Shown here: one piece after another, positions 8,288 to 15,635 of the stretch
How positions within the stretch are numbered: position 1 is the stretch's first letter
Layout: the number at the start of each line of letters is the position of its first letter
Origin: Solemya velum gill symbiont
GTDB taxonomy: Bacteria; Pseudomonadota; Gammaproteobacteria; Chromatiales; Chromatiaceae
Assembly (NCBI RefSeq): GCF_000787395.1
Contig: NZ_JRAA01000003.1
Span: 62,001-126,000 of the forward strand
Direction of reading: 5' to 3'
Length of the DNA stretch: 64,000 bases
Notes under the pieces: generated by a model
Databases searched by the model: none
Told to the model about the DNA's origin: nothing
What the model saw: the letters and a program-made list of their open reading frames with translations, nothing else
Position numbers and translations under genes: made by a program

Positions 8288-9735
8288 TGAGGTTCAGTAG
8301 TATTCAGCGCATTCTCGGTATACTGATGATGATCTTCAGTTTTACCCTGTTGCCGCCGGTGTTGGTTTCCCTGATATACCAGGATCATGCTGCAGAGGGC
8401 TTTCTTATCGCCTTTTTTGTCACTGTAACTATTGGTCTGCTGGCCTGGTTGCCGGTGCGGAATATCCGCCACGAACTGCGTCTTCAGGACGGATTTGTCA
8501 TCGTGGCCCTCTTCTGGGGCGTACTTAGTCTGATTGGTTCGTTGCCTTTCATGCTCTCGGAACAGCCGCACATGTCACTGACGGATTCTTTCTTTGAGTC
8601 CATCTCGGGACTGACCACGACCGGCGCAACTGTCATAACCAACCTCGACGAAATGCCGAAAGCGATTCTTTTCTACCGCCAGCAGCTGCAGTGGTTGGGG
8701 GGCATGGGAATCATCGTACTTGCTGTTGCCGTCCTGCCGATGCTGCGTATTGGTGGTATGCAGTTGTACAAGGCCGAGACCCCGGGCCCGATGAAGGATA
8801 CCAAGCTGACACCACGCATTACCGAGACGGCCAAGGCGCTTTGGATTATCTATCTTTCCTTGACAATCGTCTGTGCTCTGGCTTACTGGCTTGCGGGAAT
8901 GACGCTGTTCGATGCTATCGGTCATGCCTTTTCCACTATCGCTATTGGTGGATTTTCAACTCATGATGCAAGTATGGGCTTTTTCGAAAACCCGCTCATT
9001 CACCTGATTGCCATCGTCTTTATGTTCATTGCCGGGATTAACTTTGCACTTCATTTCATGGCATACAGGGGCAAGACGCTGCGTGACTACTGGCATGACA
9101 GTGAGTTCAGGTTTTACTCGGGTATCCTGCTTTTTGCGAGTATCGCGGTAGTTGCCTTTCTCTATTTTTCCGGCATTTACAACGGCAGGGAGTCGGTCAT
9201 AAAGGGAGTATTTCAGCTGGTCTCCTTTGCCACGACATCGGGATTTACCACGGCAGACTTCAACCAGTGGCCGGGTTTTGTTGCAATTCTCCTGCTGTTT
9301 ACAAGTTTTATTGGTGCATGTGCCGGTTCAACCGGTGGCGGCATCAAGGTTATTCGAGTGTTACTACTCATCAAGCAGGGTGCCCGCGAAGTAAAACGTT
9401 TGATACACCCCTCTGCGCAAATCCCTGTGCGTGTTGGCGACAAGGTGATTTCTCCAAGGGTCATCGACGCCGTGTGGGGTTTTTTTGCTCTCTATGTTGC
9501 AAGCTACACTGTCATGTATCTTGCTCTCGCAGCCACCGGGCTGGATTTAATGACGGCTTTCTCAGCAGTTGCTGCAGCAATGAACAACCTGGGTCCCGGA
9601 TTGGGAAGCGTGTCGAGCAATTATGCTGCCATCAATGATCCTGCAAAGTGGATTCTCTGCTTTGGCATGCTGCTTGGGCGTCTCGAAATATTCACCTTAC
9701 TTGTACTGCTGAGTCCTGGTTTCTGGCGACGGTAA
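8287..9735 (+). CDS. trkH: Trk potassium uptake membrane subunit TrkH
   Basis: Potassium-translocating inner-membrane subunit, 482 residues with many hydrophobic helices. Selectivity-filter-like segments are visible, for example SISGLTTTGATVI, FSTIAIGGFSTHDAS, SFATTSGFTTAD and MNNLGPGLGSVSSNY. These correspond to the four pore loops of the Trk/Ktr/HKT family. It works with TrkA, whose gene overlaps by one base. It is the last gene of the left-hand block; about 115 bp separates it from the next open frame. Confidence 0.97.
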   Translation: MRFSSIQRILGILMMIFSFTLLPPVLVSLIYQDHAAEGFLIAFFVTVTIGLLAWLPVRNIRHELRLQDGFVIVALFWGVLSLIGSLPFMLSEQPHMSLTDSFFESISGLTTTGATVITNLDEMPKAILFYRQQLQWLGGMGIIVLAVAVLPMLRIGGMQLYKAETPGPMKDTKLTPRITETAKALWIIYLSLTIVCALAYWLAGMTLFDAIGHAFSTIAIGGFSTHDASMGFFENPLIHLIAIVFMFIAGINFALHFMAYRGKTLRDYWHDSEFRFYSGILLFASIAVVAFLYFSGIYNGRESVIKGVFQLVSFATTSGFTTADFNQWPGFVAILLLFTSFIGACAGSTGGGIKVIRVLLLIKQGAREVKRLIHPSAQIPVRVGDKVISPRVIDAVWGFFALYVASYTVMYLALAATGLDLMTAFSAVAAAMNNLGPGLGSVSSNYAAINDPAKWILCFGMLLGRLEIFTLLVLLSPGFWRR

Positions 9736-9760
9736 ACAGGGAATTATTCTAATATACGCC

Positions 9761-9788
9761 TTGCAATTGCATTGGTATTTGCTAAGAT
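9761..9788 (+). promoter_or_regulatory. Candidate sigma-70 promoter
   Basis: TTGCAA (9761-9766) and TAAGAT (9783-9788) are separated by 16 bp in the gap between trkH and the next gene. Both hexamers differ from consensus, so this is only a candidate for driving the exported-protein genes that follow. Confidence 0.35.
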
Positions 9789-9851
9789 ACTGATATAGGC
9801 CATGGTTTATCCTGCTTCTCCGGCTATACTTTTTCTGAAGAGTGATAACTC

Positions 9852-10286
9852 ATGATCTGTTCGAACAGCAGTGGCAGTGTTGCTATCTACTACCTGCTGG
9901 GGATGTTGTTGGTTTGGGAATTGACGTTTGCCGCTGACCCGGTCGATAGTGAATGTGATCTGACGCTACCATCACAACTCGAGTTGTACAGCGATATACA
10001 TGCAGGCCAGTTGATTAATTTACAACCGGAATATGCGCCGGAAGCAAGATCAATGAGTTCTGCACAGAAGTTCAGGGAAGTGCTTGCAGGATTGGGCTAC
10101 ATTTTAACCGGTGATATTGACAGACTCGATCACCTGAGCAGTCCACCTGATCAGCCGTGCGATGTGCATTCTGATATTGGCTATGATTCGGAACTGAATG
10201 ACAGCTTGCTGTTCAAGGCACAAAAGAGAGAAGGCGAAAAGACGAGGTGGTATCTTTTCGAAAGTAATATTGATGAGTGGCACTGA
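9852..10286 (+). CDS. Hypothetical exported protein
   Basis: A 144-residue protein I do not recognise. Residues about 11-28 form a hydrophobic signal-like segment (YYLLGMLLVWELTFA) followed by AADPVD, a plausible signal-peptidase site, so the mature protein is probably periplasmic. The mature part is acidic, has two cysteines (in SECDL and QPCDV) that could form a disulfide, and ends in an aromatic-charged tail. GAAGAG lies about 10 bases before the ATG. It sits 82 bp before a probable sulfur globule protein in the same direction; shared function is possible but not shown. Confidence 0.6.
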   Translation: MICSNSSGSVAIYYLLGMLLVWELTFAADPVDSECDLTLPSQLELYSDIHAGQLINLQPEYAPEARSMSSAQKFREVLAGLGYILTGDIDRLDHLSSPPDQPCDVHSDIGYDSELNDSLLFKAQKREGEKTRWYLFESNIDEWH

Positions 10287-10367
10287 ACCTGGTCGATTCA
10301 ACGGCAGGAAGGTTACAGAAAGAAAGCGTGATTGTTTTAATTTATTTGTAAATAGTGGGAGAACCTT

Positions 10368-10712
10368 ATGAACAAAAATATTTTACTGGCGGTTTTGACC
10401 GCAGCAATGCTGGCATTCAGTACGTCTGCATCAGCATTCTTCTGGGATGATGACGACTGGGATGATCCATGGGACGATAACGATTGGCCAGAATTCACTC
10501 CAATGTACTGGATGGAAGAGTTTGCCGACGAAATGGATGATGACGATGACGACTACTATCGTTACGGTCCTCGTCCATACTATGGTGGTGGTTATGCACC
10601 GCGTCCTTATCCACCACGTGGCTATGGATACGGCTACCCACAGCAGCCACAGCCGTACCAGTACCCTCAGCAGGCTCCGGTACCGCAGGCTCCGGCAGCA
10701 CCTCAGCAGTAA
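10368..10712 (+). CDS. Probable sulfur globule protein (acidic, Tyr/Pro/Gly-rich)
   Basis: A 114-residue protein with a clear Sec signal peptide (MNKNILLAVLTAAMLAFSTSASA). An Asp/Trp-rich block follows (FFWDDDDWDDPWDDNDWP), then FTPMYWMEEFADEMD with six Asp in a row. The tail consists of Tyr-Gly-Pro and Gln-Pro-Ala repeats ending in APAAPQQ. Low complexity, a signal peptide, aromatic-Gly/Pro repeats and a Met-Trp-Met core resemble the sulfur globule envelope proteins of purple sulfur bacteria and other sulfur oxidisers, which coat periplasmic sulfur deposits. It is more acidic and proline-rich than the classical ones. GGGAG precedes the start. A rho-independent terminator follows. Assignment rests on composition and context. 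Confidence 0.62.
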   Translation: MNKNILLAVLTAAMLAFSTSASAFFWDDDDWDDPWDDNDWPEFTPMYWMEEFADEMDDDDDDYYRYGPRPYYGGGYAPRPYPPRGYGYGYPQQPQPYQYPQQAPVPQAPAAPQQ

Positions 10713-10733
10713 TTGCTGACAGAGCTGAATGAG

Positions 10734-10757
10734 AAAGGCGCCAATCGGCGCCTTTTT
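10734..10757 (+). terminator. Rho-independent terminator after sulfur globule-like gene
   Basis: AAAGGCGCC (10734-10742) and GGCGCCTTT (10747-10755) form a perfect 9 bp stem with a 4-base loop. A T5 run is shared with the stem end. It lies between two convergent genes and orients with the upstream + strand gene. Confidence 0.88.
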
Positions 10758-10781
10758 CTTTGATTGCCTGCTTTGATCAAT

Positions 10782-11123
10782 CTAGCAGGAGTGGCAATAC
10801 TCCATAGGCAAACCGGCAATTCTGCATGCATGTTTGCATCCCCCCTTGGGGAAAAGTTCCTGTAGTTTTTTTCCGTTACATTTCCCATATTCGACCAATT
10901 TATGGCCGACTTCCCTGACCATGGTTTTAGGTGAAGGCGGGATTTCAAATTCCTGGTAATATTCGCGCATAAAACGAATTGCGGTCCAGTGGCAGTCTGA
11001 TAATTCAATTCCATCTTCATCAGCCATTGCCCGAGCTACATCCTCATCCCAGTCTTCAAAATTTTGCAGCAATCCCTTGGCGTTCAGTGGTATCTCCCTA
11101 CCGTTTATTGCGAGTGCGTGCAT
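10782..11123 (-). CDS. DsrC/TusE-family sulfur-carrier-like protein with atypical Cys tail
   Basis: A 113-residue member of the DsrC/TusE/DsvC family. The fold-typical segments DGIELSDCHWTAIRFMREYY, KLQELFPKG and HACRIAGLP align with known DsrC/TusE proteins. These small proteins carry sulfur as persulfide or trisulfide on C-terminal cysteines. Canonical DsrC has Cys, ten residues, then the penultimate Cys. Here Cys100 aligns with the inner Cys, but the outer position is His111, flanked by Cys110 and Cys113 (EYCHSC at the very end). Cys44, Cys82 and Cys96 are extra. GGAGGA precedes the start. It faces the sulfur globule-like gene across a terminator. A paralogue role distinct from the main DsrC is likely. 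Confidence 0.85.
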   Translation of the reverse strand: MHALAINGREIPLNAKGLLQNFEDWDEDVARAMADEDGIELSDCHWTAIRFMREYYQEFEIPPSPKTMVREVGHKLVEYGKCNGKKLQELFPKGGCKHACRIAGLPMEYCHSC

Positions 11124-11479
11124 ATTTAATTCCTCCTATAGTGGTTTTTGTGATCATTCTTGTTGTCAATTCTTGTGATTGGTGCAAAAAGAACCCTTAT
11201 TAAATGTAAGGTTAGATGGTGTGGGCGCTTCTACAAGGCATTGAAACGGAAGAATGCAACATGATTGATATATATCAGTTTTCAATAGGTGGATTGATTG
11301 TGTGGGATCCATTTCTACTGCATCGCGATTGATGCTGAAGGCAAGGGATACCCGTCGCACTTGTAGGGACTGGTAAGTGACATGGTGCTGGATGATGTTG
11401 CTGATCTGCCACTGAAAATATCGGATATCTACACAAAGCTTGCGAGTTGAGCGTGGTAACATTCAATTCATTCAAACTG
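11124..11479. other. Intergenic region without a recognised gene
   Basis: About 350 bp between the divergently oriented dsrC-like and waaA genes. I see the strong GGAGGA ribosome site for the dsrC-like gene near 11131-11136. Short open stretches near 11330-11450 read GIPVALVGTGK in one frame and then SDMVLDDVADLPLKISDIY in the next. These could be a decayed 3' gene end, but I cannot identify a parent. Promoters for both flanking genes must lie here, yet no pair of hexamers is convincing. Confidence 0.4.
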
Positions 11480-12772
11480 ATGCCCGATTGGCTGCTTACT
11501 GCTGTGCGATACCTCTATACATTCCTGGTCTATATGTTGATGCCGGTCATTCTGGTTCGCCTGTGGTTGCGCGGGCGCAGAAATCCGGCATACCGGGAGC
11601 GCCTTGGTGAGCGTTTTGGCTACCTTCCGGATGATGTACCGCAAGGGTGCTTGTGGATTCACGCTGTCTCAGTGGGTGAGTCGCAGGCGACCCAGCCGAT
11701 GGTGCAGTGGCTTATGGAAGCGCACCCCGGCATGCCCGTGGTGATGACAACCACAACACCAACCGGTGGACAGCGGGTTACCCAGCTCTACGGCGATCGT
11801 ATACGCCATCTCTATTTTCCCTATGATTCACCGGCAATCATGAAGCGCTATTTCGAAGCCCTGAAACCGGTTGCGGTTATTATCATGGAGACCGAGGTGT
11901 GGCCCAACATGCTGCACTATTGCCGTCAAAACAGCGTCCCGGTTGCCCTCGCGAATGCACGCCTGTCGGAAAAGTCGGCTCAGGGTTACCATAAGTTTTC
12001 CTTTATCACTGCTGCAGCATTTCGCTGTTTTGATCTTGTTATTGCGCAAGCCGGCGCGGATGCTCAACGCCTGCTCGATTCGGGCGTGCGGCAAGAGGTT
12101 ATGCATGTCTGCGGCAGTATCAAGTTCGAGGTCAAGGTGCCACAGAGTGTGCGTGAGCAGGGTGAGTTGCTGCGTGCTGCACTGGGTGCGGACAGGCCGG
12201 TATGGATAGCCGCGAGTACCCATGAGAATGAGGAGGCAGTTGTTCTCGATGCACACAGGCGAGTGCTTGAGCGCTATCCTGATGCCTTGTTGATCATCGT
12301 GCCACGACACCCGGAGCGATTCGACACGGTGGCCGGATTGATCGAGTCCAGCGGACTCAGTTGCGTGCGCAGGACGGGTGTACACCTGCCTGTAACGGAT
12401 GTGGCAGTCTATCTCGGAGACGTGATGGGTGAATTACCGATTTTTTATGGTGCTGCAGATGTCGCTTTTGTGGGCGGCAGCATCGCACCGATTGGCGGGC
12501 ACAATATCCTCGAGCCTGCAGCACTGGGCGTTGTCGTTGTTTTTGGCCCGCATATGCAGAACTTTCTCGAAATCAGCAGGATGATGCTCGAAGCCGGTGC
12601 TGCGCTGCAGACCAGTGAGGAGCAACTCGCAGAGGTTGTGCTGGCACTACTGGGTGACCCGGTACAGCGTGAAGAGATTGGTCAGCATGGCCAGGAAGTC
12701 GTCGAATCAAACCAGGGGGCACTCGAGTGTACCCGTCAGGCGATTGAGCATCTGCTGGAGATGCGTTCATGA
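11480..12772 (+). CDS. waaA: 3-deoxy-D-manno-octulosonic acid (Kdo) transferase
   Basis: Transfers Kdo onto lipid A precursors in lipopolysaccharide core synthesis. About 430 residues, normal for the family. The N-terminus has a hydrophobic anchor (WLLTAVRYLYTFLVYMLMPVIL) followed by the acceptor-side region RERLGERFG, the IHAVSVGE segment and METEVWPN. The second Rossmann half contains GGSIAPIGGHNILEPAALG, typical of this GT30 family. I chose the ATG at 11480; an in-frame TTG at 11447 would add 11 residues. The stop overlaps the next gene by 4 bp, coupling two envelope-lipid enzymes. Confidence 0.94.
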   Translation: MPDWLLTAVRYLYTFLVYMLMPVILVRLWLRGRRNPAYRERLGERFGYLPDDVPQGCLWIHAVSVGESQATQPMVQWLMEAHPGMPVVMTTTTPTGGQRVTQLYGDRIRHLYFPYDSPAIMKRYFEALKPVAVIIMETEVWPNMLHYCRQNSVPVALANARLSEKSAQGYHKFSFITAAAFRCFDLVIAQAGADAQRLLDSGVRQEVMHVCGSIKFEVKVPQSVREQGELLRAALGADRPVWIAASTHENEEAVVLDAHRRVLERYPDALLIIVPRHPERFDTVAGLIESSGLSCVRRTGVHLPVTDVAVYLGDVMGELPIFYGAADVAFVGGSIAPIGGHNILEPAALGVVVVFGPHMQNFLEISRMMLEAGAALQTSEEQLAEVVLALLGDPVQREEIGQHGQEVVESNQGALECTRQAIEHLLEMRS

Positions 12773-14108: not shown

Positions 14109-14259
14109 TTCTGACTCCGGTTACAGGCTTTTTAAGGGCTCTCAGATCGGCAAGGTCATAAATCATGACTTGATCAGAGATTCCTTAATATTCTCTTACG
14201 ATGTGAAGACTACGCTTAACAGCCGATCGAGGTCAACCAGTGAAAAATTTATGGCGACT

Positions 14260-15635
14260 TCAAGCGAGTCCATACCAGCCTGGAAAAACCAGGATTGAAA
14301 CGAGCACAGCTACCTGTATCAGTATGAAAGGCACCACGCCACGGTAGATATCCGTGGTTGTGACCCCTGGCGGTGCGACTCCCTTGAGATAGAAGAGGCT
14401 GAATCCGAAGGGTGGTGTCAGGAAGGAGCTTTGCAGGTTCATGGCGATGAGGATGGCAAACCACAGGGGGGGCGATACCCAGGGCTTCTGCGGCAGGCGC
14501 GAGAATGGGAACGATGATGAAGCTGATTTCGACAAAGTCGATGAAAAAACCGAGTAGCAGGATGGTCAGCATCGACAATGCGAGGAACCCGATTTCATCA
14601 CCTGGCAGGTCGAGAAGCGCATCCTCAACCAGTATGTCACCACCTGTGTAGCTGAACGCCATCGAGAAGGCAGTTGCACCGAGCAGGATGGCGAATACCA
14701 TGGCGGTGACCCGGACACTGTCGAGGGCCGCTTCATAGAGCAATTTCCAGCTGAAATGACGATAAATGACTGCCAGGAGGAGTGCGCCGACAGAACCGAG
14801 TGCCGACGACTCCGTCGGCGTGGCGATACCGGCAAAAATTGAGCCGAGCACGATCAGAATCAGTGCCAGTGGCGGCAGAACATGCAGTATGGCGCTGGTG
14901 TAGAGTTTTCGCCTGTCAGTGGTCTCTGTAGACAGGCTTGGTGCTGCCTGCGGATTGCGCCAGCTGGTATAGAGGATATAGAGAATATAGAGGCCGACGA
15001 GCACGACTCCCGGCGCAACCGCTGCCCTGAAGAGGTCTCCGACCGGAATGCCCATCACGTCACCGAGGATGATCAGGACGATCGATGGCGGGATAATCTG
15101 CCCGAGGGTGCCCGAGGGTGCCCGAAGCACAAATGGTGCCGCAGCCGAGGCGCTTGTCATAGCCGTGCTTGAGCATTACCGGCAGGGAGATCAGTCCCAT
15201 CGCAACGACCGAGGCGCCGACAATCCCGGTGGATGCGGCAAGCAGGGCGCCAACCAGGACTGTCGAGATTGCCAGTCCGCCACGTACTCGTCCGAAGAGT
15301 TCACCCATCGATTCGAGCAGTCGCTCTGCAAGGCGGGTTTTTTCCAACACAACGCCCATGAAAATAAATAGTGGCACTGCCATCAGTACGCTGTTTTCCA
15401 TGATGCTCTGGATCCGGTAGGGCATGAAGGCAAAGGTACTGGTTATGTCCGCAAAGATATCGGAAAAACCGGCGCCATCCTGCAGCATGTGCTGGATATC
15501 AGGGAGTTTTGCGATACAGACGAAGATCATTGCTACACCGCCAAAAGTGAATCCGACCGGAAAGCCGAATAGCAGGGCGAGCAGGGCAACGCCGAACATG
15601 ATGATGCCGATATATTCCATCATTTCAGGCGGCAC
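14260..15635 (-). pseudogene. dctM: TRAP transporter large permease (DctM), broken by two frameshifts
   Basis: Large membrane subunit of a tripartite ATP-independent periplasmic transporter. The reading frame is split into three parts. Part 1 runs from MPPEMMEYIGI to CASGTLG. Part 2 continues from QIIPPSIVLIILGDVMG to APAAEALGI. Part 3 runs from LWFAILIAMNLQSSF to FPGWYGLA, ending at 14260. The first break is a 10 bp tandem duplication (15101-15120). The second is one extra base in a G7 run (14466-14472; six would restore the frame). Rejoined, the protein would be about 455 residues, normal for DctM. It overlaps dctQ by 11 bp. Without this subunit the transporter should not work, unless the breaks are sequence errors. 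Confidence 0.9.
15101..15120. repeat. 10 bp perfect tandem duplication inside dctM
   Basis: cccgagggtg occurs twice back to back (15101-15110 and 15111-15120), followed by cccgaagcac. Removing one copy restores the conserved reading GTICASGTLGQIIPP of the large TRAP permease. The duplication is therefore the cause of the first frame break. Confidence 0.95.

Follow-up and report, generated by a model that had tools for sequence, protein, structure and literature searches.

The 64,000-nucleotide stretch of the Solemya velum gill symbiont genome analysed here (the window) encodes a DsrC-family protein whose C-terminal arm carries four cysteines, ending in a CHxC tail that is shared by one clade of relatives, present in many sulfur oxidisers. 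This tail exceeds chance, being present at 64 places in 63 of the 210 genomes of the order. Judged by its residues it fits neither DsrC nor TusE, though the protein lies inside a known family. The window protein belongs to a distinct and conserved gammaproteobacterial subfamily of DsrC paralogues close to canonical DsrC, the CHxC type. We tentatively propose that in this type the four thiolates form one metal or redox site and the protein serves as a sensor or regulator. The coordinates of the gene, its tail codons and its neighbours are collected in Table 1.

Table 1. Features of the window in and around the gene for the CHxC-tailed DsrC-family protein.
Feature	Position	Strand	Basis
Gene, DsrC-family protein with four-cysteine (CHxC) tail, 113 aa	10782..11123	-	ORF and PF04358, 110.6 bits
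Tail codons, Cys96 to stop	10782..10838	-	Sequence reading
Cys96 codon	10836-10838	-	Sequence reading
Cys100 codon	10824-10826	-	Sequence reading
Cys110 codon	10794-10796	-	Sequence reading
His111 codon	10791-10793	-	Sequence reading
Cys113 codon	10785-10787	-	Sequence reading
Stop codon TAG of the gene	10782-10784	-	Sequence reading
Shine-Dalgarno-like AGGAGG ahead of the ATG	11132..11137	-	Sequence reading
Convergent ORF, 114 aa, signal-peptide-like start, Asp-rich then Tyr/Gly/Pro-rich	10368..10712	+	Composition
Terminator-like hairpin separating the convergent gene pair	10731..10758	+	Hairpin search
ORF, 144 aa, secreted-looking, ahead of the Tyr/Gly/Pro-rich ORF	9852..10286	+	ORF list
Divergent KDO transferase (waaA)	11447..12772	+	PF04413, 208.4 bits

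The window protein scores 110.6 bits on the Pfam DsrC model PF04358, where the cut-off is 24.9, and 103.8 bits on TIGR03342, where it is 53.5. These profile scores and the modelled fold place it in the DsrC/TusE/DsvC superfamily, in agreement with the original prediction. According to the ORF translation, the C-terminus reads FPKGGCKHACRIAGLPMEYCHSC. Cys82, Cys96, Cys100, Cys110, His111 and Cys113 all lie where that prediction had put them, and the protein has one further cysteine, Cys44, which it had left out. A structure model built from five sequences (mean pLDDT 83.3, pTM 0.77) adopts the DsrC fold, with Z scores of 13.7 to 1sau and 13.6 to 1yx3, and places helices at residues 96-102 and 107-111. 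The fold search returned eight DsrC-family chains from the PDB at Z 10.5-13.7, the next match scoring 4.4. A sequence search of the PDB at E ≤ 0.01 gave nine matches, eight of them DsrC-family proteins and the ninth a designed barrel at E 0.003.

The four tail cysteines are nearly fixed among the relatives, while His111 is common, not essential. The consensus tail is GGCxxACxxAGLPxxYCHxC. When the window protein is aligned with the DsrC of the dsr cluster in the same genome (L001), Cys100 coincides with the inner cysteine and His111 with the penultimate one. The tail statistics cover every one of the 64 places, no row being left out. Cys96, Ala99 and Cys100 are present in 64 of 64, Tyr or Phe at 109 in 63, Cys110 in 62, Cys113 in 63 and Cys82 in 60, and the tail has the same length throughout. 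Position 111 holds His at 58 places, Gln at three, Tyr at two and Ala at one; cysteine never occurs at this penultimate-type position (0/64). All four tail cysteines occur together at 61 of the 64 places, the deviants being G193 (Cys110 to Ala), G100 (Cys110 to Arg) and G162 (Cys113 to Pro). Two more distant proteins depart further. One (G055) ends YLCRSL and retains three tail cysteines; the other (L260, from G069) has Cys96 replaced, stops short of position 110 with the ending AGLPESF and retains Cys100 alone. A sister type ends CHCRG(V/L), with its cysteines at positions 96, 100, 108 and 110.

Our first search, a single-sequence scan of genome contigs, yielded four loci; the CHxC tail occurs in two, L037 and, in a Sedimenticola MAG, L039. 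A profile of 32 aligned members (A1), all of which match TIGR03342 and, at E ≤ 0.001, the TusE model NF008562, was then searched over the 210 genomes of the order. The 64 places, the window's own included, score at least 157 bits and span 19 of the 61 genera by hand count. Below them come G055 at 130 bits and G069 at 123 bits, and the other matches in the order at E ≤ 1e-32 score at most 120.8 bits, all of them aligned only to position 107. In the class (369 genomes), the only additions were G426, which scores 164 bits, and a copy interrupted by stops in G361; four further matches at E ≤ 1e-34 reach at most 122.7 bits and their alignment ends at position 107. Across the phylum (398 genomes, E ≤ 1e-34), the window's own gene was the sole match. 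The family of G426 (24 genomes), the second family of the class with such tails, contributes 15 places of the CHxC/CHC kind in 14 genomes. The ending is YCHSC at four of these and CHCRG(V/L), or something very close to it, at the other 11; four cysteines are kept in 9 of these 11 CHC-type tails.

The original prediction had described the tail in a single protein, and had allowed that homologues with such a tail might be absent and the tail an isolated error. Such homologues exist, and the 64 places in the order mark a subfamily. Sequence error as the origin of the tail is rejected, the tail being conserved among relatives.

The copy in G361 (G361:C137:106-402, L217) lies outside both main families, carries a CHC-type tail (GGCELACKIAGLPDCHCRGV) and is interrupted by two stop codons within the match; it is either a damaged copy or contamination of the bin. 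No additional CHxC/CHC place was found in the family of G361 (23 genomes). Viral or plasmid spread of the CHxC gene was also considered and is rejected, as no viral, phage or plasmid carrier was found among the sequences searched. Against plasmids, the search gave 15 records, none reaching 60% identity; the matches with a named gene are tusE, one of them also with the neighbour yccX. The phage search returned two records, one annotated as TusE-like and one unannotated, neither matching beyond residue 106. Among viral contigs, the tail-pattern scan gave no match and the profile scan no relative among 15 stretches.

Collecting homologues and comparing their tails on a tree, as had been proposed, identified the CHxC tail as a conserved feature of one clade. 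In a tree of 110 sequences, made by a quick method from few columns, the Cys-rich (CHxC/CHC) proteins form one group with an SH-aLRT support of 83, or 98 when L260 is included, and this group branches in the region of the tree that also holds canonical DsrC (84). When the tail columns are removed, the Cys-rich group requires two changes instead of one. A single origin is still compatible with this result, so the grouping does not depend on the tail alone. The CHxC proteins are a single clade with GGCxxAC and a distal cysteine pair. Among the canonical tails inspected, whose endings are PTGC(V/I) or nearly so, no DsrC of the dsr-operon type had a CHxC ending; the rule by which 37 distinct sequences were classed as canonical itself demands the standard ending.

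The host genome (G000, 2.7 Mb) contains seven DsrC-family genes (L001-L007), each with a different arm. L001 is the DsrC of the dsr cluster, whose gene order was read by eye; it lies on contig C1 and ends KQACRYAGLPKPTGCV / CRYAGLPKPTGCV. The window gene is on contig C4 and is not encoded by the dsr cluster, as the original prediction had stated. L005 is of the TusE type, ending PTGCV with Thr at the inner position. The remaining arms end ..LLLDL (L002), SFGSTL (L006) and RSYLS (L007), next to CHSC in the window protein and RKGGY in L004. L004 has no tail cysteines and is located at C1:725719-726015, 6.6 kb from dsrC (locus L042, C1:712500-732000), and an RKGGY-type paralogue stands within about 6-8 kb of dsrC in several relatives too. 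Across relatives, the tail types KGGY, WSTG, GEH, FGS, TusE and CHxC/CHC each form their own group, with support of 100 for KGGY, 98 for TusE, 96 for both FGS and GEH and 93 for WSTG. The C-terminal arm divides the extra DsrC-family copies into groups, much as though it served each paralogue as an address.

We also inspected the genes around the CHxC loci. No operon common to all genera was found among these loci, the neighbours varying by genus. In the window, the gene had been described as facing a sulfur globule-like gene. A convergent, secreted-looking Tyr/Gly/Pro-rich ORF is indeed present, and it appears globule-protein-like in composition only. This ORF, a possible sulfur globule protein, gave no Pfam or NCBIfam match. 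The hairpin between the two genes is one of two found on both strands of 9700-11500, against a mean of 1.3 in shuffles. The secreted-looking ORF at 9852..10286 belongs to no Pfam or NCBIfam family. Further along, a TRAP-type transporter gene (14249-15635, minus strand) is apparently broken across several reading frames (15060-15635, 14249-15160 and 14260-14535; ORF list, by eye) and appears to be a pseudogene or to contain sequencing errors.

The original prediction had also asked whether genomes with the same tail share the globule-like neighbour. In the genera g15 and g53, a different Tyr/Gly/Pro-rich family stands upstream of the CHxC gene: a secreted gene of this family, a DUF302-like gene (best Pfam score 19.8, cut-off 23) and the CHxC gene lie in line in 14 of 18 genomes (7/8 in g15 and 7/10 in g53), the two partner genes upstream on the same strand. 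In the four genomes of these genera that lack the line-up, the upstream flanks are at most 1.5 kb. The survey covered 62 of the 64 places. The line-up is missing at the 44 other places, where many flanks are only 1.5 kb; one of these places has a secreted gene 7.65 kb from the CHxC gene. A scan by composition detected Tyr/Gly/Pro-rich secreted ORFs in 12 of 65 CHxC/CHC loci and in none of 141 control loci (864 kb; some overlapping, many only about 3.3 kb long), and an earlier, stricter scan in 4 of 58 loci versus 0 of 77 others. Both scans are incompletely sensitive, as a gene at L153 was missed and then found by BLAST. At E ≤ 1e-20, the secreted family is present in 51 of the 63 CHxC genomes and in 23 of the 147 others, uncorrected for kinship; the 12 CHxC genomes without it include the window's. 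The ORF facing the window gene resembles this family weakly, with composition correction off. The secreted and DUF302-like pair lies clearly apart from the CHxC gene in G178, G200, G053 and G038, and in G183, where contig ends fall at both the pair and the CHxC gene, the two could be adjacent. The globule link of the CHxC gene is a real lead, not a result.

The secreted family itself (L158:7451-8565 and relatives; FGDMFNPGRWFGG ... WPSAPAFRPMDQY) is often paired with a DUF302-like gene at the loci inspected, and at E ≤ 1e-6 it has matches in 103 of the 210 genomes, the weak ones perhaps through composition only. We dropped the identification of the g15/g53 gene with SgpD: in G138, taken as A. 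vinosum, the match lies at 60 kb of C1, which by estimate misfits Alvin_2515, the locus tag given for SgpD in an excerpt of PMC10386293. At eight loci in six genera (L160, L161, L166, L173, L174, L184, L185 and L081), a member of a malate synthase G cluster stands one or two genes upstream of the CHxC gene on the same strand, the assignment being based on one cluster member compared with Pfam.

With respect to function, we infer joint action of the cysteines, a metal or disulfide, and a sensing role. The CHxC arm has given up the penultimate, sulfur-carrying cysteine and holds C96-x3-C100 followed, ten residues on, by C110-H-x-C113 (C108-H-C110 in the sister type). Such a C-x3-C ... C-x2-C (or C-x-C) layout suggests a metal site or a disulfide switch. 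The four thiolates would work as a single site, either around a bound metal (zinc or iron-sulfur) or as a thiol/disulfide switch, which would fold the arm back and make it responsive to redox, sulfide or persulfide state. The arm may bind a metal or change shape with the sulfur or redox state of the cell, in place of ordinary sulfur carriage. The protein would work in trans, sensing or regulating how sulfur is stored and oxidised, and would not be a substrate carrier for DsrAB. In the host genome, the DsrC of the dsr cluster and a protein of the TusE type already occupy the carrier roles, so the simplest reading is that the CHxC clade has given such a role up. L260, which lost Cys96 together with both distal cysteines, fits joint action of the cysteines as a single case. 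The three of 64 places without Cys110 or Cys113, the three cysteines of G055 and the two of 11 CHC tails that are one short indicate that a fourth ligand is not absolute. The narrower proposal of a metallo- or redox-switch DsrC, a carrier arm turned into a four-thiolate sensor of the stored-sulfur state in particular, we regard as doubtful.

A C-terminal thiol pair suits a sulfur carrier as well, and the closest rival to the four-thiolate switch is a persulfide carrier in a shifted register, to which we give a real but minority chance. Here Cys110 or Cys113 would take a persulfide from a DsrEFH/TusBCD-like donor and pass it to a partner other than DsrAB, with Cys96/Cys100 resolving it as a disulfide. 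The fold and family are unchanged from DsrC, the canonical inner Cys100 is retained at every place and the last residue is Cys in 63 of 64, and CxxC pairs can resolve persulfides by general thiol chemistry. Yet this reading leaves the constant Cys96 unexplained, and no donor or acceptor gene was recognised among the neighbours inspected, a non-exhaustive set of which ten were compared with Pfam. The cysteine that carries sulfur in A. vinosum DsrC, according to an excerpt of PMC3397948, is moreover missing in 64 of 64.

A third reading ties the cytoplasmic CHxC protein to secreted Tyr/Gly/Pro-rich proteins, those of sulfur globules or others, as a specialised partner that would control the synthesis or turnover of stored sulfur jointly with the nearby DUF302-like and Tyr/Gly/Pro-rich genes. 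We consider it unlikely. The three-gene line-up, the excess in the composition scan and the co-occurrence across genomes all speak for it; against these stand the confinement of the line-up to two genera (though many flanks elsewhere are short), the short control loci, the pairs found apart from the CHxC gene, and a co-occurrence that is uncorrected for kinship and fails in the window's own genome. That the gene is a decaying, functionless DsrC duplicate with a drifting tail is highly improbable: a few members are down one tail cysteine and the G361 relative has in-frame stops, but none of the 64 matched stretches contains a stop codon, Cys96 and Cys100 are constant across 19 genera and the tail length is fixed. 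The four-thiolate sensor or regulator is the reading we tentatively prefer. If the narrower, doubtful proposal of a metallo- or redox-switch DsrC is true, the DsrC fold would include a regulatory branch of its own, recognisable by the tail. The clade as a whole, with its rewired four-cysteine arm, is directly testable.

No description of a DsrC with a CHxC tail was found in searches of an open-access literature library. Sulfur oxidisers can possess several DsrC-family genes, the additional ones lacking an established role; A. vinosum, for example, has four besides dsrC (PMC3368242). Our searches found no CHxC protein in G138, taken as A. vinosum. On that identification, work on the best-studied species would not have brought the type to light, which may explain the missing description.

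Compared with known systems, the window protein shares the fold of the dsr-operon DsrC proteins of A. vinosum (1yx3) and A. fulgidus (1sau), is 44% identical over 103 residues to the DsrC of its own genome, and keeps the inner Cys100 and the motif K.AC..AGLP. It differs from DsrC in lacking the penultimate cysteine, in having gained Cys96, Cys110 and Cys113, and in being encoded outside the dsr cluster. The Cys-x10-Cys-x C-terminus of DsrC proper is missing from the CHxC proteins, none of which has Cys at 111; in A. vinosum DsrC, only the penultimate Cys111 takes the persulfide, as an excerpt of PMC3397948 has it. Viral DsrC_1 and TusE-like proteins, as portrayed in excerpts of PMC4164917 and PMC8190135, resemble the CHxC type as DsrC-family members with a changed cysteine set, whereas the CHxC tail itself was not found in the viral and phage sequences searched. 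With TusE, the window protein shares the TIGR03342 family and a score of 85 bits on the TusE model NF008562, which falls far below the equivalog cut-off of 191. TusE keeps the penultimate cysteine and mostly lacks the inner one (PMC3397948, in excerpt), the reverse of the CHxC proteins, which have the inner cysteine in 64 of 64 and Cys at 111 in none. A separate TusE-type protein, L005, is present in the host genome. DsrC relatives with CysB only, that is, with the inner cysteine present and the penultimate one absent, were reportedly called 'RspA' by Venceslau et al. in 2014. The CHxC clade resembles this grouping in having the inner and lacking the penultimate cysteine, and differs from it by the gain of Cys96, Cys110 and Cys113.
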